Shown: positions 52,927 through 64,000 of the stretch, piece after piece
Numbering within the stretch: the first letter of the stretch is position 1
How the letters are laid out: every line of letters starts with the position of its first letter
NCBI RefSeq assembly: GCF_907164905.1
Contig: NZ_CAJRAF010000001.1
Span: forward strand, 717,001 to 781,000
From: Dyadobacter sp. CECT 9275
GTDB lineage: Bacteria; Bacteroidota; Bacteroidia; Cytophagales; Spirosomataceae
Direction: 5' to 3'
Length of the DNA: 64,000 bases
Translations under genes and position numbers: made by a program
Notes under the pieces: model-generated
Told to the model about the DNA's origin: nothing
The model's input: the letters and a program-made list of their open reading frames with translations, nothing else
Database searches by the model: none

Positions 52927-54375
52927 ATGAATGACCAAACGAATCCGACTGAAAATCCCTCCCGCAGAGACTTTATCAAAACATCATCTTTGGCAGCGTC
53001 TTCATTTTTCATTGTTCCGCGTCATGTTTTAGGTAAAGGGTTTGTCGCACCGAGTGATAAGCTGAACATCGCCGGGATAGGAGTGGGCGGAAAAGGGAAA
53101 AGTGACCTTGCCAGCTTCGCCAAAAGCCCGAACGTAAATATAGTGGCACTTTGTGACGTGGATGATCGCCAGGCAGTTACCTCTCGCGAGAACTTCCCGA
53201 AAGCCAAGTACTACAAGGATTTTCGTGAAATGCTAAAAAAAGAAAAGAACAGCATTGATGCCTGTTCTATTTCAACTCCCGATAACACGCACGCCGTTGC
53301 CACACTGGCAGCGATGCAGCTCGGTAAACACGTATATACGCAAAAGCCCTTGACCCACGATATCTACGAAGCCAGGATACTGGGACAGGCGGCAAAAAAG
53401 TATAAAGTAATTACACAGATGGGCAACCAGGGTGGTTCGGGCAATGGTGTGAGGCGTATGAAAGAGATATATGATTCGGGTATCATCGGTGATGTGCATA
53501 AAGTGCTCTGCTGGACCAACCGCCCGGTGTGGCCGCAGGCCGTTCCTACCGACAATGTGGATCCGATACCGAAAGAACTTGACTTTGACCTTTGGCTGGG
53601 TCCGGCTCCCAAAGTAGGTTACAACAAGGAGTATCTTCCCTGGAACTGGAGAGGCTGGTGGCCGTATGGTACCGGTGCGCTGGGTGACATGGCCTGCCAC
53701 ATTATGGATCCTGTTTACAGAATTTTACCGATACTATATCCTGTTTCAGTGGAATGCAGTGTGGGTGGAACCTGGACTTTCACTTTAAGAGAAAAAGATA
53801 ACAATCCCGACTGGACACCTTTCACTACTTCTATTCACCTGGATTATCCACGTAACGACGGAAAAGGAAATATCAAAGTGAGCTGGTATGACGGCGGTAT
53901 CCTGCCCGAGTTACCTGAAGAATTACTTCCGGGCGAAGTTTTTGGAAATTCGGATGGTGGTGTACTGTTCATTGGAAGTAAGGGAAAACTGCTGGCCGAC
54001 TGCTACGGTGCTAACCCACGTTTGCTTCCGTTGAAGGAAAACCAGATCGTCAATATTCCGGAGACCATTGCGCGCGTTCCCAATGAAGATCATTACCTGA
54101 ACTGGGTTGACGCCTGTATAGCCGGATACGGTAAAGGGGTAACAAGCTCTCCCTTCGAGTACGCAGCCCCATTCACAGAAAGTATCCTGATCGGTAACCT
54201 GGCTATCCGCAGCTGGATGTTGCGCGACAATCCAGCTGCCAAGAGAACGGTAGATAAGTACAACGGACGCAAGAAGTTGTACTGGGATGCTGCTAACATG
54301 AAAGTAACCAACTACGACCTGGCAAACCAGTTTGTAAAAAGAGAGTACCGCGAAGGCTGGGACTTGAAATTATAA
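52927..54375 (+). CDS. Tat-exported Gfo/Idh/MocA-family oxidoreductase
   Basis: A 482-residue oxidoreductase with a Tat signal (SRRDFIK at 12-18, then a short hydrophobic stretch), so it is probably folded with its cofactor before export. The Rossmann motif is GVGGKG at 52-57; the usual EKP is T-Q-K140-P, keeping the lysine. The C-terminal domain has WNWRGWWPYGTGALGDMACH. Periplasmic members of this group act on sugars and polyols with tightly bound NAD. It has its own terminator and precedes a sigma factor and a large sugar-oxidising lipoprotein. Confidence 0.93.
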   Translation: MNDQTNPTENPSRRDFIKTSSLAASSFFIVPRHVLGKGFVAPSDKLNIAGIGVGGKGKSDLASFAKSPNVNIVALCDVDDRQAVTSRENFPKAKYYKDFREMLKKEKNSIDACSISTPDNTHAVATLAAMQLGKHVYTQKPLTHDIYEARILGQAAKKYKVITQMGNQGGSGNGVRRMKEIYDSGIIGDVHKVLCWTNRPVWPQAVPTDNVDPIPKELDFDLWLGPAPKVGYNKEYLPWNWRGWWPYGTGALGDMACHIMDPVYRILPILYPVSVECSVGGTWTFTLREKDNNPDWTPFTTSIHLDYPRNDGKGNIKVSWYDGGILPELPEELLPGEVFGNSDGGVLFIGSKGKLLADCYGANPRLLPLKENQIVNIPETIARVPNEDHYLNWVDACIAGYGKGVTSSPFEYAAPFTESILIGNLAIRSWMLRDNPAAKRTVDKYNGRKKLYWDAANMKVTNYDLANQFVKREYREGWDLKL

Positions 54376-54519: not shown

Positions 54520-55139
54520 GTGAATACTACGGATAGCTTTGGTAAATGGTGTACGGAACAGCAGCTCTGGGGGGCCGTCAGGCAAGGAGATGAGCACGCC
54601 TTTACCGTTGTTTTTGAAAGGTATCATGGGATATTATACAACTACGGCTCCAAACTCACGGCAGATACAGCGCTCATTGAAGATGCCATCCAGGATGTTT
54701 TTATAGATATATGGCGATTGCGTGCAGGCCTGACTGAAAACATTTCTTCCATAAAATTTTATTTGTACCGGGCATTGAGGAGGCGGATCCGGGTGACATT
54801 GGAGAAATATCCTTCTGCTCAGGAGATATCTGGCTTATCGGACCCGGACATTAGCCCTTTGTCCTTTTCCGATTCAGAAACAATACTTATCGAAACGGAA
54901 TCAAACCATCTCCGTAAAAAAGGGTGAAAGAACTGTTATCCCAGCTTCCTGAGCGCCAAGTGGAAGCCATTACCTTACGTTATTTTGACGGCTTCAGTGT
55001 AGATGAAATTGCACAGATTATGGGCGTAACGGATAAGTCGGTCCGGAATTTTTTGTATAAAGCACTTTTTTCGCTTCGCCAGACACGAGAGGTACTTATT
55101 TCTTCTATCCTGATTGTGTGGTCCTTATCCCATTTTTAG
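54520..55139 (+). pseudogene. ECF sigma-70 factor gene split into region 2 and region 4 halves
   Basis: Two frames together form one ECF sigma factor. The first (54520-54927, 135 residues) holds region 2: YHGILYNYGSKLT, AIQDVFIDIW and a start of the linker. The second (54924-55139) holds region 4: LPERQVEAITLRYFDGFSVDEIAQIMG with its helix-turn-helix, ending in a hydrophobic tail common in Bacteroidetes ECF factors. The break is at AAAAAAGGG (54916-54924): the first frame ends at TGA 54925-54927, and the second opens with a GTG overlapping it as GTGA. A -1 shift there would restore one protein. It may be a mutation or assembly error in a homopolymer, programmed frameshifting, or reinitiation making two separate domains. 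A FecR-like anti-sigma gene follows. Confidence 0.8.
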
Positions 55140-55227: not shown

Positions 55228-55497
55228 ATGGCAAAAAAATATGATCCTTTTTCTCTGACCGAGCTGATCAGAAACGATGAATTTATCACATGGGTTTTAC
55301 ATCCTGATTCAAAAAGTGATTTGCAATGGGCGGCCTTTTTGGAACAGTATCCCGAAAAGAAAAAAACAGTAGAGTCTGCACGGGCTTATATCATTCTGCT
55401 GGCGGAAGATACCGGAAGAAGCAGGCCCAGCCAGGCCCAGACCGATAGAATGTGGAAAGCGGTAGAAAGTGGCATGTCAGAAAAAAAGACCGAGTAA
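55228..55497 (+). CDS. minimal FecR-type anti-sigma protein (cytoplasmic domain only)
   Basis: An 89-residue protein resembling the N-terminal sigma-binding part of Bacteroidetes FecR proteins: LTELIRNDEFITWVLHPDSKSD, WAAFLEQYPEKKKTVESAR. Normal FecR proteins continue with a membrane helix and a periplasmic sensing domain; both are absent here and no remnant follows the stop. It begins 88 bases after the split sigma gene and precedes the large lipoprotein gene by 122 bases. It could hold the sigma factor without sensing the outside, or be a truncated remnant. The resemblance is by pattern only. Confidence 0.65.
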   Translation: MAKKYDPFSLTELIRNDEFITWVLHPDSKSDLQWAAFLEQYPEKKKTVESARAYIILLAEDTGRSRPSQAQTDRMWKAVESGMSEKKTE

Positions 55498-55619: not shown

Positions 55620-58600
55620 ATGAAAAAGATAGTAATCCTCAGTCTGGTAGTCCTGGTTTTATCCTGTACGCAAAAGAGCGGAACACACAACGGTACGGCC
55701 GGGAAAAGCGGAGCCGTCAATGCGCGCCGGGCAGAAGTCCTGTTCCTTGGACATAACAGCAAACATCATGATTCGGGCAAGTATGCACCCTGGCTTTCTA
55801 TCAAACTGTTTCAGAGCGGAATCAATATGTCGTACACGGCAAATCTGGCAGATATCAATCCCGAAAATCTCAGCAAATATGATGGATTGATCATTTACGC
55901 CAATCATGATTCGCTACCAGCTGCACAGGAGGCGGCCATGAAGGCCTTCGTGGAAAGCGGAAAAGGACTTATTCCCCTTCATTCGGCATCTGGTTGTTTC
56001 AGGAATTCGGCCTGGTATATCAAAACCATCGGCGGACAGTTTGCCTCGCACAAAACCGGAACTTTCAGGAATGTAATACTAAAGCCCGGGCATCCGGTGA
56101 TGAAAGGAATAACTGACTTCGAAACTTTTGACGAAACCTACGTTCACAAAAATCTGAATCCGGATAAAATCATTCTGGGTGAAAGAGTGGAGGGCGATCA
56201 CCAGGAGCCCTATACCTGGGTGCGTAATGAGGGAAAAGGGCGGGTTTTTTACACCGCCTACGGTCATGAAGACAGTACCTGGACCAACAAAGGATTTCTG
56301 GATTTGGTAAGAAACGGGGTACTCTGGGCCGTCGGAGACAAAGTTGCCGGACAGATCGCTGCCCTTAAAATCCCAAATGTTGACATCTATCAGTCTGATA
56401 CGATTTCACATTACACCAAACGACATATGGTGCCTAAGATGCAGGAATCACTTTCTCCTGCGGAATCCAACAAACTCACTCAGATACCTCCTGATTTTGA
56501 GATAAAACTTTTTGCTGCCGAGCCTGACATCACCAATCCGATAGCGATGGCTTGGGATGAACGCGGGAGATTATGGGTGGTGGAGTCTGTAGATTACCCC
56601 AATACCTTTAAAGAAACAGACGGTGCTGCCAATGACCGTATCAAGATCTGCGAAGATACTGACGGCGACGGAAAAGCGGATAAGTTCACCACCTTTGCCG
56701 ACAACCTCAATATACCTACGAGCATGGTGTTCTCAAACGGGGGTATCATTGTTTCTATGGCACCGGATTTCGTGTTCATGAAAGATACCAATGGAGACGA
56801 TGTAGCGGACGTAAGGGAGGTGATCATGACCGGCTGGGGAAAAAATGATACCCACGCAGGACCTTCAAACCTCATGTATGGCTTTGATAATAAAATATGG
56901 GGGGTAAACGGATATTCTGGTTTTAAGGGTACCATCAACGGAAAGGCTTACAGTTTTCCGCAGGGTGTATATCATTTCAAACCGGACGGAAAGGAATTTG
57001 AGTTTTTGGGCAACAGTAGTAACAATACCTGGGGGCTGGGCTTTACGGAGGATAACAATGTTTTTCTTTCCACCGCTAATAATACACACAGCGCTTTTTA
57101 TTCCATGCCTGCCAAATATCTGCAGCGGGTTGTGGCTGACGCCGGTAATCCCATACAGGCCGTTCAGAAAATTGACGGACATTATGACGCACATGCGTTG
57201 ACACCCAACCTGCGGCAGGTGGATGTGGTAGGCGGATTTACTTCTGCCGCCGGGCACCGTTTTTACACAGCCAGAAATTTTCCCAAAGAATATTGGAACC
57301 GCATTGCCTTTGTAACCGAGCCAACGATTCGTTTGGTACACAAATCCATTATTGAGCCGGACGGTGCAGGCTTTAAGGAAAAAGATGGCTGGAATTTTAT
57401 GGCCAGTTCCGATGAGTGGTTTGGACCGGTCCAGGCGGAAGTTGGCCCTGATGGGGCCGTGTGGATAGCCGACTGGTACAATTTCATTATTCAGCACAAT
57501 GTTTTTGTTCCGGCACAGTCTCCCGCCGAATTCATTATTCCGTTTAAGGAACAGCCGCATGGTCCTGGAAACGCTTTCAGCAGCCCCATGCGCGACCTGA
57601 GCCATGGCAGGGTATACCGCGTGATCTATAAAAATGCAAAAACAGGTACATCCCTCAGGCTTTCCAAAGAAGACCTGCCAGGCCTTGTTGCTGCCCTCGA
57701 AAACGATAATATGTTCTGGCGTATGACTGCCCAGCGCTTGTTGGTGGAGTCAGGTAAAGTATCCGTTGCGCCTGATCTGTACAAAATTATTAACAACCCA
57801 AAGGTCGATGAGATCGGATTGAATAGCCCAGCCGTTCATGCCCTTTGGACCCTGCATGGCCTGGGCCTGCTGGATGGCTCCAATACCGAAGCGCTTGCCG
57901 TGGTGAATAAGGCACTTACACATCCGGCCGCCGGGGTCAGAAAGGCGGCAGCCATGGTTTTGCCTAAAAATGAAAAGAGCTTTGGCGGAATTCAGCAACT
58001 TCTGCAGGATAAAAGCCTGAACACCCGCCTGGCGGCATTTCTTAGCCTGACCGAAGTACCAGCTTCCGATAAAATTGGGGAGGCACTTTATGAAGCTTCT
58101 CTGGATGAACGAAATGCGAAGGATGCCTGGCTCTCCAAAGCGATTTTGGCGGCGGCTGTCACCCATGAGAAAGGATTTATTGCAGCAGCTGCAAAGCGGT
58201 CGCGCAGTTCGGATTTCAGTGCGCAGATCGTGGACGCCCTGAAAAAAGAGACTTACGTTTTGGGCAGGAGAAATACGTTTCAGTTTTCTCCGGACGTCGC
58301 CGGAAAAGAAATCACGATCAGGGCCAGTGTGGTAAAGGCTAAGGATAAACCGTTAAAGGGTTTCATTGCCGGACAAGGTGGAAAGGATGGCGGATATGCC
58401 CTGTATATTCAGGACGGGAAAGTGATCATGGCCGTAAAACAGCATGGTATGATAAGCCAGGCGGCTACTTCTGAACCGCTGCCCGACAAGTTTGATGTAG
58501 CGGCCAGGCTGACTAAAGGGGGAAATATCGGCATTGAAATAGATGGAAAACTGGTAGCGCAGGGTAAGGCTCACATGTTATTTGCGGCGCCGCTTTCAGG

Positions 58601-59153
58601 CTCGGTCCGTACGGGAGAGGATGTGGAAGGAGAAGACAAGCTGGGTAGTTATGAAGGGCGTTTCGGTTTTGTGGGAAATTTTCAGAAGGCGTCGCTTGAG
58701 CTTAACAGGCCTGACGAAAGCAAAACTTCCCCCGAGACGACCACCGGAAATACGTCGACCTCAAAACCAGCTAATGCTCTCATCATTGATTTGAAAGTGG
58801 AAAAGGAAATTATGCAATATGATAAAAAGCTGATCAGTGTAAAAGCCGGGCAAAAGGTGGTGATTAACCTTGAAAACCCTGATGGCATGCAGCACAATCT
58901 TTTAATCATTAAACCTGGGACTCTGCAAAAGGTGGGTAAAGCAGCTGACGAGATGCTGTCTGACCCGAAGGCAGCCGAAAAAAGTTATGTTCCCAAAATG
59001 CCGGAAGTACTGTTTTCTACCAGGCTGGTCAATTCCGGCGAAACTGTGACCCTCGAATTTACAGTGCCCGCTACCCCGGGAGATTATCCCTATGTATGTA
59101 CCTTTCCGGGGCATTGGCGGGGGATGAATGGAATTTTAAGAGTTACCAAATAA
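55620..59153 (+). CDS. lipoprotein: ThuA-beta-propeller dehydrogenase-HEAT-jelly-roll-azurin fusion
   Basis: An 1177-residue surface lipoprotein (lipobox LVLSC, Cys16). Domains in order: ThuA fold at 38-240 (ends GRVFYTAYGHEDSTWTNKGF); a PVC-type membrane-bound dehydrogenase beta propeller at about 288-680 (IAMAWDERGRLWVVESVDYP, with acidic EDTDGDGKADK loops); HEAT-like repeats at about 690-860; a DUF1080/LamG-like jelly roll at about 885-1030; and an azurin domain at about 1055-1177. The copper ligands are all present with azurin spacing: H1092, C1160, H1165, M1169. Many propeller relatives carry a cytochrome c CxxCH; none is present here, so copper may replace heme as electron acceptor. It probably oxidises sugars at the cell surface. 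Confidence 0.85.
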   Translation: MKKIVILSLVVLVLSCTQKSGTHNGTAGKSGAVNARRAEVLFLGHNSKHHDSGKYAPWLSIKLFQSGINMSYTANLADINPENLSKYDGLIIYANHDSLPAAQEAAMKAFVESGKGLIPLHSASGCFRNSAWYIKTIGGQFASHKTGTFRNVILKPGHPVMKGITDFETFDETYVHKNLNPDKIILGERVEGDHQEPYTWVRNEGKGRVFYTAYGHEDSTWTNKGFLDLVRNGVLWAVGDKVAGQIAALKIPNVDIYQSDTISHYTKRHMVPKMQESLSPAESNKLTQIPPDFEIKLFAAEPDITNPIAMAWDERGRLWVVESVDYPNTFKETDGAANDRIKICEDTDGDGKADKFTTFADNLNIPTSMVFSNGGIIVSMAPDFVFMKDTNGDDVADVREVIMTGWGKNDTHAGPSNLMYGFDNKIWGVNGYSGFKGTINGKAYSFPQGVYHFKPDGKEFEFLGNSSNNTWGLGFTEDNNVFLSTANNTHSAFYSMPAKYLQRVVADAGNPIQAVQKIDGHYDAHALTPNLRQVDVVGGFTSAAGHRFYTARNFPKEYWNRIAFVTEPTIRLVHKSIIEPDGAGFKEKDGWNFMASSDEWFGPVQAEVGPDGAVWIADWYNFIIQHNVFVPAQSPAEFIIPFKEQPHGPGNAFSSPMRDLSHGRVYRVIYKNAKTGTSLRLSKEDLPGLVAALENDNMFWRMTAQRLLVESGKVSVAPDLYKIINNPKVDEIGLNSPAVHALWTLHGLGLLDGSNTEALAVVNKALTHPAAGVRKAAAMVLPKNEKSFGGIQQLLQDKSLNTRLAAFLSLTEVPASDKIGEALYEASLDERNAKDAWLSKAILAAAVTHEKGFIAAAAKRSRSSDFSAQIVDALKKETYVLGRRNTFQFSPDVAGKEITIRASVVKAKDKPLKGFIAGQGGKDGGYALYIQDGKVIMAVKQHGMISQAATSEPLPDKFDVAARLTKGGNIGIEIDGKLVAQGKAHMLFAAPLSGSVRTGEDVEGEDKLGSYEGRFGFVGNFQKASLELNRPDESKTSPETTTGNTSTSKPANALIIDLKVEKEIMQYDKKLISVKAGQKVVINLENPDGMQHNLLIIKPGTLQKVGKAADEMLSDPKAAEKSYVPKMPEVLFSTRLVNSGETVTLEFTVPATPGDYPYVCTFPGHWRGMNGILRVTK

Positions 59154-59217: not shown

Positions 59218-59952
59218 ATGATCCATTCACTAAAAGCCTGCCTTGTTTTTATCATGATTATGGGCTTGGGGGTAGCTCATGCAAGCGGTACTCTAACCCC
59301 GAAAAAGAAAAGGCCCGTCCGGGTATTATTGGTAGGTGGCGGTGCTTCCCATGATTTTGACAGGTGGTACAAGGGGGAAGATGTGTCCACGCTTCAGAAA
59401 GGCGGTCTGGCGACGGTTGAGTATACCAGTGATCCAACCACTATCCTGTCGAAATTACCGGATATAGATGTACTTCTTCTTGCAAATAATCAGCCGATCA
59501 GCGATGCAGCCACCCGCAAGGCCATTTTTGCATTTGCCGATGCCGGAAAAGGCTTGGTGCTGGCGCATCCGGCCATCTGGTACAACTGGAAAGACTGGCC
59601 GGAATACAATCAAAAACTTGTGGGCGGAGGATCAAGAGGGCACAACAAATACGGGCCGTTTGACGTAACCATCACCAATCCCAAACACCCTGTGACCAAA
59701 GGAATACCGTCCACGTTTCATCTTGACGATGAATTGTACTATTTCATACCGGACAAAACCGGAACGCCGGTTGAGGTACTGGCAACGGCCAAAGCGGCAG
59801 ATTCGGATAAAGTTTTCCCTAGCCTGTTTGTCGTGAAATATCCAAAGGGGAGGATCGTAGGTATCGCCCTGGGGCACGATGCAGCGTCGCATACGCTGGA
59901 ATCTTACCAAACGATTTTAAGAAATGCCGTTAAGTGGGCCGCGGGCAGGTGA
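59218..59952 (+). CDS. ThuA-domain protein, exported
   Basis: A 244-residue protein with a signal peptide (VFIMIMGLGVAHA) and a single ThuA domain of the glutamine-amidotransferase-like fold: VRVLLVGGGASHDFDRWY, LVLAHPAIWYNW and the HPVTKGIP.TFHLDDELYYF block. ThuA with ThuB (a Gfo/Idh dehydrogenase) takes part in trehalose use through 3-keto forms in rhizobia. The gene lies between the azurin fusion and a Gfo/Idh gene, in line with that chemistry. Confidence 0.9.
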   Translation: MIHSLKACLVFIMIMGLGVAHASGTLTPKKKRPVRVLLVGGGASHDFDRWYKGEDVSTLQKGGLATVEYTSDPTTILSKLPDIDVLLLANNQPISDAATRKAIFAFADAGKGLVLAHPAIWYNWKDWPEYNQKLVGGGSRGHNKYGPFDVTITNPKHPVTKGIPSTFHLDDELYYFIPDKTGTPVEVLATAKAADSDKVFPSLFVVKYPKGRIVGIALGHDAASHTLESYQTILRNAVKWAAGR

Positions 59953-60096: not shown

Positions 60097-61215
60097 ATGA
60101 GTCAGAAGCAAATCACAGTAGTCATTGTAGGGATGGGTTTTGGAAAAGAATTTATTCCTATTTATCAGAGCCACCCAAATATTAAGGCGGTTGGAATTTG
60201 TACGCGCAGCAAACAAACCCGTGATGAACTGGCTGCTAAATTCAATCTGGATGAAGACCTGGTTTTCGAGCATTTTGAAGACATTCCCGCAAGAGAAGAT
60301 GTAGATGCCATTCACATTGTAACACCTGTTCCCGAACATGCCCGAATGACACTGGCGTCGTTGAATGCAGGAAAACATACGGCTTGTACCATCCCTATGG
60401 CGATGACCAAAGAGGATTGTATCGCTATTGTGGATGCAAAAAGAAAGGCAAAAAAAGTATACATGATGATGGAAACAGCGCTGTATACCCGGGAGTTTCT
60501 ATATGGTCTGAAGCTGGCCGAAACCGGTGAGCTGGGGCGGATACAGTTTGTCCGCGGCTCGCATATTCAGGATATGAGCATGGAAGGATGGGGTGAATAC
60601 TGGAAGGGATATCCTCCGATGTTGAACGGTACACACGCCATATCCCCCTTGTTGAAAATAAATAATACTATTGCCGAAACCGTAGTATGTCATGGCTCAG
60701 GGAGGCTTTCCGATGATCTGGCCAGTCGCTATGGGTCGCCTTTTGCGGTAGAAACGGCCACTTTCACCCTGAAAAATTCGGATGTTGTAGCAGAGGCCAC
60801 GCGTTCGCTTTTTGATGTGGTACGGCAGTATCGTGAGAGTTATGATGTATACGGGACCAAAATGTCGTTTGAATGGGAGCAACTTCAGGACGAAAGTCAT
60901 ATCATTTTTGATGGCGGCGAAAACGCCAAACGGGTGGATGTTCCGGATACGGATGAGCTTTTGATTGAGCCGATCAAACATTTTACCAAACGTGAGAAAA
61001 TTGATGACCCCAATCACGTATCGTTTCTGCAGGGAGCCGGACACGGCGGATCGCACCCCCATTTGGTGCAGGAATTTGTAGCAGCCATTATTGAAGGGCG
61101 AGACTCTGCCGTTGATGCTGCACTGGCAGCAAACTATACCTGCGCCGGAATTTGCGCGCACGAGTCGGCCATGAATGGCGGGATCAGGGTGGATGTGCCA
61201 AGTTTTGAAGAATAA
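60097..61215 (+). CDS. Gfo/Idh/MocA-family protein lacking the EKP lysine
   Basis: A 372-residue cytoplasmic member of the family: Rossmann start VVIVGMGFGKEFIPIYQSHP and HIVTPVPEHARMTLASLNAGKH. The canonical motif that normally gives EKP reads C-T98-I99-P100, so the usual catalytic lysine is replaced by Ile. Such a change suggests altered chemistry (for example reduction with another base, or a non-oxidative role), unless another residue compensates. The C-terminal half is complete (GAGHGGSHPHLVQEFVAAI). It precedes a TIM-barrel epimerase gene, the common pair. Confidence 0.88.
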   Translation: MSQKQITVVIVGMGFGKEFIPIYQSHPNIKAVGICTRSKQTRDELAAKFNLDEDLVFEHFEDIPAREDVDAIHIVTPVPEHARMTLASLNAGKHTACTIPMAMTKEDCIAIVDAKRKAKKVYMMMETALYTREFLYGLKLAETGELGRIQFVRGSHIQDMSMEGWGEYWKGYPPMLNGTHAISPLLKINNTIAETVVCHGSGRLSDDLASRYGSPFAVETATFTLKNSDVVAEATRSLFDVVRQYRESYDVYGTKMSFEWEQLQDESHIIFDGGENAKRVDVPDTDELLIEPIKHFTKREKIDDPNHVSFLQGAGHGGSHPHLVQEFVAAIIEGRDSAVDAALAANYTCAGICAHESAMNGGIRVDVPSFEE

Positions 61216-61290
61216 AACTTAGGCCCATAGGCCCGCAACATTTGAGCCATGGGTTAACCTATGGCCATTATAATTAAAATTCCAACAGAT
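61216..61290. repeat. second palindrome-rich spacer related to that at 59967
   Basis: Contains GGCCCAT/ATGGGTT and GCCATGG words around 61221-61266, similar to the element upstream of the Gfo/Idh gene. It extends across an earlier ATG (61261), which supports the later start of the next gene. Confidence 0.35.
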
Positions 61291-62139
61291 ATGTTATTCG
61301 GTGCCAGTACATTTATATGGGTATCTCCGTTTTCCACGGCAAATATCGATTTGCTTACCAAAGTAAAAAATATGGGCTATGACATCATTGAAATAGCCGT
61401 AGAAGATACCAGTATTATAGACTGGCGGTCAATGAAAACGGTGGCCCGTGATCTGGATCTGAAAATCACCATCAGCGGCGCTTTCGGTGAAGAGCGGGAT
61501 ATTTCCAGTACAAACCCGCAGTTCCGCCAGTTGGGAAAACAGTATATCGTTGACTGTATCAAAATTGCTGCGGATGTTGAGAGCCCTGTTTTCGGTGGAC
61601 CGGTATATTCCGCTGTGGGAAAAACCAGGCTAGTTTCAGAGGAACAGAAAAAACAGGAGCGTGCCTGGTGCGTTGAAACCCTGGCAGAGGTTGGAAAAAT
61701 AGCGTCTGATTATGGCGTGGTGGTTGGCCTGGAACCGCTTAACCGGTTTGAAACGGATATGGTCAACACGGTAGACCAGGCTCTGTCGATCGTCAACGAG
61801 GTTTCCAGCCCAAACCTGAAGATTGTTCTGGATACTTTCCACTCGAATATCGAGGAAAAGGATATCCCCGCTTCGATCAGAAAAATCGGCAAGGAACTGC
61901 TTTGTCATGTTCAGGGTAACGAAAGCGACCGTGGTACACCTGGAACCGGGCATCTGGAATGGCAAGGGATCAAAGAAGCTCTGACGGATATCGGGTATGA
62001 GGGAGCTGTGGTTATTGAAACCTTCGGGCAGCCTTCTAAAGAACTGGCTCGGGCCGCCTGCATCTGGCGCCCGCTGGCCAACAGTGCCGATGAACTTGCC
62101 AGCGAGGGACTTTTGTTTTATAAGAGCCTGTTTTCATGA
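61291..62139 (+). CDS. TIM-barrel sugar isomerase/epimerase (second copy)
   Basis: A 282-residue xylose-isomerase-like barrel starting MLFGASTFIWVSPFST. Metal ligands: Glu in VVVGLEPLNRF, Asp in KIVLDTFHSNIEE, His in LLCHVQGNESDRG and Glu in GAVVIETFG. This arrangement is that of D-tagatose/L-ribulose 3-epimerase-type enzymes. An alternative ATG at 61261 would add ten residues, but the conserved start fits 61291. It follows the Gfo/Idh gene and precedes GH43, so it probably epimerises or eliminates a keto-sugar released by the locus. Confidence 0.88.
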   Translation: MLFGASTFIWVSPFSTANIDLLTKVKNMGYDIIEIAVEDTSIIDWRSMKTVARDLDLKITISGAFGEERDISSTNPQFRQLGKQYIVDCIKIAADVESPVFGGPVYSAVGKTRLVSEEQKKQERAWCVETLAEVGKIASDYGVVVGLEPLNRFETDMVNTVDQALSIVNEVSSPNLKIVLDTFHSNIEEKDIPASIRKIGKELLCHVQGNESDRGTPGTGHLEWQGIKEALTDIGYEGAVVIETFGQPSKELARAACIWRPLANSADELASEGLLFYKSLFS

Positions 62140-62158: not shown

Positions 62159-63226
62159 ATGATGAACGTCCTGTTTTCGTTGCTGCTGATCCTTTCTTTT
62201 TTAGGGGAATCTGGTATTATCAGGACAATAGCAATACCCGGAGCAGCTTTTGATCCCGCCGATTCTGCAAAGTATACCAATCCGGTTTTTGAACCCGTAC
62301 TGGCGGATCCGTCGGTAATCAGGGGAACAGATGGCTGGTTTTACGCCTTTGGTACCATGGATGACTGGGGAGATGGAAAAGGTGCTCATTTGGTTCCAAT
62401 CCTGCGTTCCCGGAATCTTACCCGCTGGACCTTCCTGAAGGATGCATTCATAAAAAAGCCATCCTGGAAAGAAAAAGGAGGGATATGGGCTCCGGATATT
62501 GCCAGGGTGAATGGCAGGTATCATCTTTATTATGCCTTTTCTACCTGGGGAGATACTGACCCCGGTATCGGATTAGCAGTGGCCGATTCGGTTACAGGTC
62601 CGTTCCAGGATCAGGGTAAGCTCTTTCTCAGTTTGGAAGTGAATGTCCCGAATTCAATAGATCCGTTCTACCTGGAAGACGCCGGCAGGAAGTATATTTT
62701 TTGGGGGAGTTATTCCAACGCTTCTAACCAGGGTACCTTTGGTGTTGAACTTGCCGGTGATGGAAAGTCGGTGCCGGACCTGGGCAAAAAGTTTAAAGTG
62801 GCAGCAGGAGACTTTGAGGCGGTGATGATACACCGGAGAAACGGATATTATTATTTTTTCGGGTCAAAAGAGAATTGCTGTGATGCTGAAAAAAGCAAAT
62901 ACCAGGTTCGTGTAGGAAGGTCTCAAAAACTTGCCGGACCCTATCTCGACCAAGAGGGAAAACCGTTGAAGGAAAGAGGGGCGGGTACGCTCCTGCTTCA
63001 CCGGACCGAGACCGTTGCTGGTCCGGGGCATAATTCCAGAATCATAACCGATAAAAATGGACAGGATTGGATGTTATATCATGCTATTGATGTGAAGCAA
63101 CCGAAGGTGCCCAGTGGAGCCAACCGACGGGTACTAATGCTTGACAAAATAACATGGAAAAACGGCTGGCCGGAAATCAAAAACCAGCAGCCCGGAATCA
63201 TAGAGCAAAATGCACCTACGTTTTAA
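62159..63226 (+). CDS. GH43-family glycoside hydrolase, exported
   Basis: A 355-residue five-bladed propeller hydrolase with a signal peptide (NVLFSLLLILSFLGES). Catalytic residues by pattern: general base Asp in LADPSVIRGTDGWFYAFGT, pKa-setting Asp in NSIDPFYLED, general acid Glu in GDFEAVMIHRRNG. GH43 enzymes cleave arabinans, arabinoxylan or xylan side chains. A longer reading from 61997 only extends into the previous gene. It is 19 bases after the epimerase gene. Confidence 0.92.
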   Translation: MMNVLFSLLLILSFLGESGIIRTIAIPGAAFDPADSAKYTNPVFEPVLADPSVIRGTDGWFYAFGTMDDWGDGKGAHLVPILRSRNLTRWTFLKDAFIKKPSWKEKGGIWAPDIARVNGRYHLYYAFSTWGDTDPGIGLAVADSVTGPFQDQGKLFLSLEVNVPNSIDPFYLEDAGRKYIFWGSYSNASNQGTFGVELAGDGKSVPDLGKKFKVAAGDFEAVMIHRRNGYYYFFGSKENCCDAEKSKYQVRVGRSQKLAGPYLDQEGKPLKERGAGTLLLHRTETVAGPGHNSRIITDKNGQDWMLYHAIDVKQPKVPSGANRRVLMLDKITWKNGWPEIKNQQPGIIEQNAPTF

Positions 63227-63294: not shown

Positions 63295-64000
63295 ATGAAA
63301 CTATTAAAAACGACACTATGGGCACTGGCAGCGCTTGTTTTATTCCAGAACTGTTCCAAAAAGGCCGACAGCGAGAAAGAGGAAAGTGCAGCGGCCGGGC
63401 AGCCTGCCAAACGGGAGATTTGGACCAAAGAGCAAGCCAAACAATGGTACGGCCAACAGGGATGGCTTGTGGGAGCCGACTTCCTGCCAAGCACGGCGAT
63501 TAACCAGCTGGAAATGTTCCAGGAGGCATCCTTCGACACCGCCACCATCAACCGCGAACTAGGCTGGGCGGCAGGTATCGGGATGAATACCATGAGGGTA
63601 TATCTGCATGATCTTCTTTATGAGCAGGATTCAACCGGTTTTTACAAGCGCCTCGACGTTTTTCTGGACATTGCCGCAAAACATAAGATCAGGCCCTTGT
63701 TTGTTTTGTTTGATTCCTGCTGGGATCCTTTCCCGAAATTAGGGCCGCAGCGTGCTCCCAAACCTGGAGTTCACAATTCGGGATGGGTGCAAAGCCCTGG
63801 TTTTGAAGCCCTGAAAGACAGTACGCAATACCCGCGCCTCGAAAAATATGTAAAAGGTGTTGTCGGTAAATTTGCAGGTGATGACCGTATCCTGGCATGG
63901 GATATCTGGAACGAACCCGACAATACCAATAACAGCTCTTATGGCAAAGTGGAGCTTCCCAATAAAGTGGATTACGTGTTGCCTCTATTAAAAAGCTCCT
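63295..64000 (+). CDS. GH5-like (cellulase-family) lipoprotein, 5' part
   Basis: Start of a lipoprotein: lipobox LVLFQNC, then a TIM-barrel glycosidase. The acid/base Glu is in ILAWDIWNEPDNTN, and GIGMNTMRVYLHD precedes it. The window ends inside the gene, so the nucleophile Glu is not visible. The type suggests a beta-glycanase, such as a cellulase or mannanase. It follows the GH43 gene by 68 bases, completing the hydrolytic end of the locus. Confidence 0.8.
   Translation, partial: MKLLKTTLWALAALVLFQNCSKKADSEKEESAAAGQPAKREIWTKEQAKQWYGQQGWLVGADFLPSTAINQLEMFQEASFDTATINRELGWAAGIGMNTMRVYLHDLLYEQDSTGFYKRLDVFLDIAAKHKIRPLFVLFDSCWDPFPKLGPQRAPKPGVHNSGWVQSPGFEALKDSTQYPRLEKYVKGVVGKFAGDDRILAWDIWNEPDNTNNSSYGKVELPNKVDYVLPLLKSS

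Follow-up and report, generated by a model that had tools for sequence, protein, structure and literature searches.

A Dyadobacter lipoprotein that joins ThuA, a DUF7133 propeller and an azurin-like cupredoxin: a candidate copper-linked glycoside dehydrogenase

The window analysed here is the whole 64,000-nucleotide stretch of the Dyadobacter sp. CECT 9275 genome from positions 717,001 to 781,000 of contig NZ_CAJRAF010000001.1, and its subject is the gene at 55620..59153 (+), a single open reading frame with exact boundaries that encodes an exported lipoprotein of 1177 amino acids. The domains of this protein, and the neighbouring genes from the sigma factor gene at 54520 to the GH5 gene at the window's end, all lie on the same strand. 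The frame begins with a signal peptide and lipobox V-L-S-C16 (55620..55667; residues 7-14 form a helix in the AlphaFold2 model), followed by a ThuA domain (residues 40-237, 55737..56330), which scores above the cut-off of its Pfam model (PF06283, E 7.8e-37) and has the expected fold. The beta-propeller that comes next (residues 279-672, 56454..57635) is recognized by both DUF7133 (PF23500, residues 279-671, E 1.1e-121) and the NCBIfam model TIGR02604 (residues 292-672, E 4.7e-76, 256.5 bits against a cut-off of 122.2). HEAT-type helical repeats occupy residues 686-875 (57675..58244), where HEAT_2 matches residues 765-815 below its cut-off (E 2.3e-5; 25.1 bits, cut-off 27.7) and the model is helical. 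Residues 876-1029 (58245..58706), which the model gives as strands, are read as a LamG/concanavalin-like jelly roll; the segment has no Pfam match at E 0.1 in this protein and no solved relative by sequence below E 0.1, and Laminin_G_3 is matched at E 0.1 by 32 of 41 aligned segments of relatives (best 1.9e-7). A reading of this segment as a 3-keto-disaccharide hydrolase (PF06439) was rejected, since that family is not among the Pfam matches and LamG was found instead. The chain ends in an auracyanin/azurin-like cupredoxin (residues 1054-1176, 58779..59147) identified by Copper-bind (PF00127, residues 1057-1175, E 3.2e-12, 47.1 bits against a cut-off of 21.2). The AlphaFold2 model, built from an 86-row alignment (mean predicted local distance difference test, pLDDT, 84.9; predicted template modelling score 0.86), has secondary structure consistent with ThuA, the propeller, helices at 686-875, strands at 876-1029 and the cupredoxin at 1054-1176, with a low-confidence linker at 1034-1050. 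The domain order proposed by the first-pass annotation, which had been made from the sequence alone, is thus correct according to Pfam, NCBIfam, the model and the Laminin_G_3 matches of the relatives.

The same annotation had placed a full type-1 copper site in the C-terminal domain, and the predicted ligands are indeed those it named: His1092 (58893..58895), Cys1160 (59097..59099), His1165 (59112..59114) and Met1169 (59124..59126), all four conserved without exception in 86 of 86 aligned homologues. They are also invariant in 79 cupredoxins from related loci, 71 of which were selected through the C-H-M motif, so that this set tests only His1092 independently. The closest solved cupredoxin sequence is auracyanin A (2aan, E 2.3e-14), followed by several azurins and other blue copper proteins, and the azurin equivalog TIGR02695 scores 40.3 bits, below its cut-off of 105.1; on these scores the domain is best described as azurin-like and not as azurin proper. 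A CxxCH haem motif is lacking throughout the 1177-residue protein, as first reported, and the main proteins of all 80 related loci are without it too. The propeller exceeds the cut-off of TIGR02604, yet the protein has no haem site of the kind to which the name of that model refers.

The fusion is not unique to this genome, an idea that was considered and rejected. In a protein search that scored 8000 candidates, 5112 of them below E 0.001, ThuA, DUF7133 and Copper-bind occur together in 113 of the 120 best proteins listed (the query included), which answers the call of the first-pass annotation for a database search for the same domain order. The other listed homologues with this architecture are 62-84% identical to the query, a recurrence that makes it more than a chance assembly. 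The remaining seven lack just the PF00127 call: six of them (P0051, P0056, P0060, P0061, P0063 and P0071) are in the 86-row alignment and retain the four copper ligands, and P0062 was left out of it. Of at least 545 confirmed loci 80 were kept, and the named genomes among them include Dyadobacter, Persicitalea, Spirosoma, Fibrella, Algoriphagus, Cyclobacterium, Pontibacter, Adhaeribacter, Segetibacter, Chitinophaga, Parapedobacter and one Flavobacterium. We call them related loci and not orthologs because they form one closer group and another at 51-55% identity, and some genomes contribute two. Many members of the clade are named "PVC-type heme-binding CxxCH protein" at NCBI, a haem name without the haem motif that was probably inherited from TIGR02604.

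The relation between the two carriers becomes visible when DUF7133 propellers are compared more broadly. PF23500 gives 36 match rows, corresponding to about 30 proteins, in the Dyadobacter sp. CECT 9275 genome alone. From this genome 32 regions were sampled (28 around DUF7133 matches and four around ThuA matches), and 80 further regions were taken from 19 genomes of the same order, representing 80 of at least 133 match rows outside the own genome. A script classified 106 propellers, query included, from 20 genomes of one order (by inference Cytophagales), after one propeller cut by a region end (L181_+2_7920) and a duplicate (L044_+0_1, the same protein as L045_+1_9842) had been left out. A CxxCH motif follows the propeller in 77 of them and 25 carry a cupredoxin, a count that is no estimate of frequency because the regions from other genomes were taken from the top of the list down, starting with the first 20, which favours the ThuA clade. 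The cupredoxin is a C-terminal azurin in 21 cases and N-terminal in three, and in one frame-broken gene the azurin lies in the next frame; three propellers have neither carrier and one is truncated. No protein among the 106 has both carriers: the 20 azurin rows besides the query all retain H-C-H-M and lack CxxCH, and the copper-loop motif is absent from all 77 CxxCH rows. A tree of the propellers (quick search on 106 rows and 374 columns, support by the SH-like approximate likelihood ratio test, SH-aLRT) requires three changes between copper and haem, all of them forced by the starred branches, against an average of 22.5 for shuffled labels, a contrast inflated by near-copies. In the clade that bears ThuA (19 rows, support 100), every row but the truncated one carries copper. 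These comparisons lend support to the replacement of haem by copper, and suggest that the two carriers are interchangeable in this propeller family.

Several other layouts were seen in the course of this sampling. L045:1950-7355 (+) encodes 1802 residues with a GDSL lipase, DUF7133, HEAT, F5/8 type C, azurin and a C-terminal ThuA. L050, L172 and L178 are the DUF7133 proteins with an N-terminal cupredoxin; they bear a CSVPGH motif, and PF00127 scores 27.6 bits in L050. L056 (own genome, C4:704502-715134) holds a DUF7133 paralogue in two frames, the propeller and then a remainder with azurin, apparently a frame break or pseudogene. L053_-2_8118, with neither carrier, adjoins a CxxCH paralogue. 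Weak paralogues of the own genome that fell below the score threshold, outside the 106, comprise L062 with CxxCH, L063, L064 and L065 with neither motif, and L066 with the azurin motif.

The cupredoxin is fused in 71 of the 80 related loci. In seven (L217, L221, L223, L224, L226, L229 and L248) the jelly roll is the last domain of the main protein, and a reading frame of 182-205 residues with a hydrophobic leader, directly downstream, encodes the cupredoxin on its own; in L234 the main protein ends at the contig edge. Fused in most loci and encoded beside its partner in seven, the cupredoxin appears to function together with the remainder of the protein. The description of the enzyme as "self-contained" finds no support here, as its copper domain is a separate gene in these seven loci.

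Downstream of the lipoprotein gene the window holds four same-strand genes separated by gaps of 64, 144, 45 and 25 bases. They encode a free-standing ThuA protein (59218..59952; PF06283, E 2.3e-29), a Gfo/Idh/MocA oxidoreductase identified by Pfam (60097..61215), a TIM-barrel protein resembling sugar epimerases and isomerases (61261..62139; PF01261, E 1.2e-37) and an arabinanase-like protein of glycoside hydrolase family 43 (GH43; PF04616, E 2.3e-56), for which the start at 62165, also used for the gap, was chosen within a mechanical frame from 61997 (62165..63226). Homologues counted in the fetched flanks on either strand were found in 39, 68 and 66 of the 80 loci for the first three, respectively. 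The best NCBIfam match of the TIM-barrel protein is D-psicose 3-epimerase (191.8 bits, below the cut-off of 300), and the GH43 protein scores 140.8 bits against AbnA, below its cut-off of 480. A family 5 (GH5) protein at 63295..63999 runs off the window; it is 81% identical by tblastn to the GH5 protein of the related Dyadobacter locus L210, which itself matches PF00150 (E 1.5e-8). Upstream lie an extracytoplasmic function (ECF) sigma factor gene split in two frames (54520..55139; region 2 at 54520-54927, region 4 at 54924-55139), whose break may be a sequencing error, and an 89-residue remnant of a FecR anti-sigma factor (55228..55497) that matches residues 18-94 of a 399-residue FecR.

The order in L210 is ECF sigma, FecR, SusC, SusD, DUF3823 and the copper lipoprotein gene, followed by ThuA, Gfo/Idh, TIM barrel, a 691-residue protein, GH43 and GH5, and other Dyadobacter loci likewise have the sigma factor, FecR, SusC and SusD in this position. 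Near relatives of the L210 genes, the only ones counted, were found upstream in 30 (SusC), 29 (SusD), 20 (sigma factor) and 20 (FecR) of the 80 loci. A tblastn search of the window found no match for the L210 SusC, SusD, DUF3823 or 691-residue genes, and the pairing of SusC and SusD beside enzymes that marks a polysaccharide utilisation locus is absent from the window; the half of the locus that serves uptake seems to have been lost from this place. The 691-residue proteins of related loci (L210:16565-18637 and L216:7903-9975) have no Pfam match at E 0.01. A further Gfo/Idh protein with a weak twin-arginine (TAT)-like signal is encoded at 52927-54375; it has homologues in just 8 of the 80 loci and is related to BT_2158 "glycoside 3-dehydrogenase" (480.9 bits, cut-off 750).

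Taken together, we propose, with a probability of about 0.6, that the protein is exported, dehydrogenates a glycoside, carries its own copper acceptor on a tether and feeds a keto-sugar pathway. The DUF7133 propeller would bind a sugar or glycoside outside the cytoplasm, aided by the lectin-like jelly roll, and remove two electrons from it. These would move singly to the tethered type-1 copper domain, the job of the fused cytochrome c in most sampled relatives, and onward to the respiratory chain through a further carrier. Both the fused ThuA domain and the free ThuA protein would act on the keto-sugar product, which, once imported, would be processed by the Gfo/Idh oxidoreductase and the TIM-barrel protein of the cluster. 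The data show the domains, the copper ligands, the exchange of copper for cytochrome domains and the gene context; in this scheme we infer the redox activity of the propeller, its sugar substrate, the electron path and the role of ThuA. The keto-sugar route is plausible because another protein of the same genome fuses ThuA, GSDH and cytochrome c and because free ThuA, Gfo/Idh and TIM-barrel genes lie downstream. Electron transfer to copper is the reading that follows most naturally, as the copper domain stands in the place of cytochrome c and never alongside it among the 106 sampled propellers; taken alone, the role of the cupredoxin as electron acceptor is very probable. The word "oxidase", used at first, is not supported, and a sugar oxidase was rejected: the matches include no oxygen-reducing domain, and "dehydrogenase" fits better.

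Cupredoxin folds can also act as copper chaperones, so that the domain might serve copper binding, storage or structure and not electron transfer, which we regard as highly improbable: the type-1 ligands are intact in 86 of 86 homologues, the domain replaces cytochrome c and never accompanies it in the sample, and among solved sequences it lies closest to auracyanin and other blue copper proteins. Other six-bladed propellers include lactonases, lyases and hydrolases, and the propeller could be such a non-redox enzyme or a binding scaffold, with the cupredoxin serving a partner protein. That 102 of the 106 sampled propellers bear one of two one-electron carrier types would then be hard to explain, and we judge this decidedly unlikely.

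Several observations weigh against the proposed dehydrogenase. Paralogue types L040/L138 and L053_-2_8118 have the propeller and no electron-transfer domain, and in the related locus L245 an azurin was looked for and none found. The propeller tree comes from a quick search with SH-aLRT as its sole support, and the tree tool flags long branches that meet, including L045 and the surroundings of the N-terminal-cupredoxin group. The neighbourhood counts (68 and 66 loci for Gfo/Idh and TIM-barrel proteins) are raw, without a background control, and both families are common. Further points concern the cofactor. The nearest folds of the propeller are sugar dehydrogenases that use pyrroloquinoline quinone (PQQ), the fold shared by GSDH and AA12 enzymes. 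PF07995 (GSDH) gives no match at E <= 1 for the 1177-residue protein and matches 2 of 20 DUF7133 propellers; a profile built from the ThuA clade only does not match GSDH (probability 3%), and neither of two queries with a single propeller against solved structures yielded a usable sGDH alignment. The PQQ contacts of sGDH, H144, R228, N229, K377, R406 and R408 (their motifs are visible in the alignments), differ at five of six positions in a 15% identity alignment whose register may err: H144 aligns to Ala413, adjacent to His412, R228 to Asn, K377 to Thr, R406 to Gly and R408 to Val, and N229 alone is identical. The biosynthetic protein PqqC was not found in the Dyadobacter sp. CECT 9275 genome or in the controls, and none of 395 sampled genomes of the phylum exceeds the cut-off (27 have distant matches), in a search run without a true-PqqC genome as positive control; for PqqE all matches in the own genome are below cut-off, and so are those in all 14 controls. 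The first-pass annotation had named a propeller lacking redox cofactor sites as the observation that would count against it, and this is partly approached: the fold fits, and most of the PQQ contacts differ in the low-identity alignment.

The same data bear on a variant in which the enzyme is redox-active and the propeller of the copper-linked clade uses another centre, such as a His-held metal, that reduces the type-1 copper directly. Beyond the changed contacts and the failure to find PqqC, the Arg equivalent to R406 occurs in 67 of 77 cytochrome rows versus 3 of 26 non-cytochrome rows, and the His equivalent to H144 in 51 versus 4; all 26 non-cytochrome rows have His412 and Asn469, and His490, His521, His574 and His626 are invariant across the 86 aligned homologues. 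Of the 26 non-cytochrome rows, 19 belong to one clade, so that the shift in residues is not independent of descent; we consider this variant unlikely. Its bolder form is a speculation that we hold slightly more doubtful still: DUF7133 enzymes linked to copper would make up a new class of sugar dehydrogenase that works without quinone, their propeller having lost the PQQ contacts and probably holding a His-bound metal centre that feeds a tethered or co-encoded type-1 copper directly, and the acceptor would have changed from one of haem and copper to the other three times or more.

The propeller fold, the cupredoxin and the tethering of carriers are already known. PVC-type heme-binding CxxCH proteins (TIGR02604/DUF7133 with a C-terminal cytochrome c) share the propeller and the NCBI name with the lipoprotein, which differs in having a cupredoxin for cytochrome c, no CxxCH, and added ThuA and LamG-like domains. 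In the pyranose dehydrogenase CcPDH of Coprinopsis cinerea (AA12), which has the same propeller fold, electrons pass from PQQ to a tethered haem b (PMC4332668); there the carrier is haem and N-terminal and PQQ is shown, whereas here it is a C-terminal cupredoxin and PQQ is only a candidate cofactor. Catalytic units tethered to a redox-partner domain such as cupredoxin are described for redox-partner-linked copper nitrite reductases (PMC9358711), and cupredoxin-tethered and haem-copper three-domain forms are reported (PMC7201279, PMC6278305); these differ in reducing nitrite with an unrelated catalytic domain. Auracyanins A and B and azurin share the cupredoxin sequence and copper ligand set but are free small proteins, unlike the cupredoxin described here, fused or a separate gene in the seven split loci. 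In the DgpA/DgpBC and PurA/PurBC C-glycoside pathways the sugar moiety is oxidised to its 3-keto form before cleavage (PMC12724307); they are a precedent for the keto-sugar step proposed here.

In the open-licence literature, covered by titles and abstract openings among the matches listed, no description was found of a DUF7133/TIGR02604 protein with a cupredoxin, of copper replacing haem within this family of propellers, whether the two parts are fused or split, or of the placement of such genes in sugar-uptake loci; in the literature searched no tested function was found for members of this clade. The exchange of haem for copper indicates, indirectly, that the propeller does transfer electrons; it suggests copper as a further extracytoplasmic route for electrons from sugars and connects enzymes of this kind with loci for sugar uptake. 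A question that follows is how many PQQ-fold enzymes obtain or replace their cofactor in a phylum where PqqC was not found over cut-off in the genomes sampled.

The own genome also encodes a haem-bearing counterpart built on the same modular plan, at L067:2349-5753 (-), a protein with ThuA, GSDH, PKD, cytochrome c and CBM6 domains. It shares with the copper lipoprotein the combination of ThuA, a dehydrogenase propeller, a carrier and a sugar-binding domain, and differs in having GSDH instead of DUF7133 and haem instead of copper.

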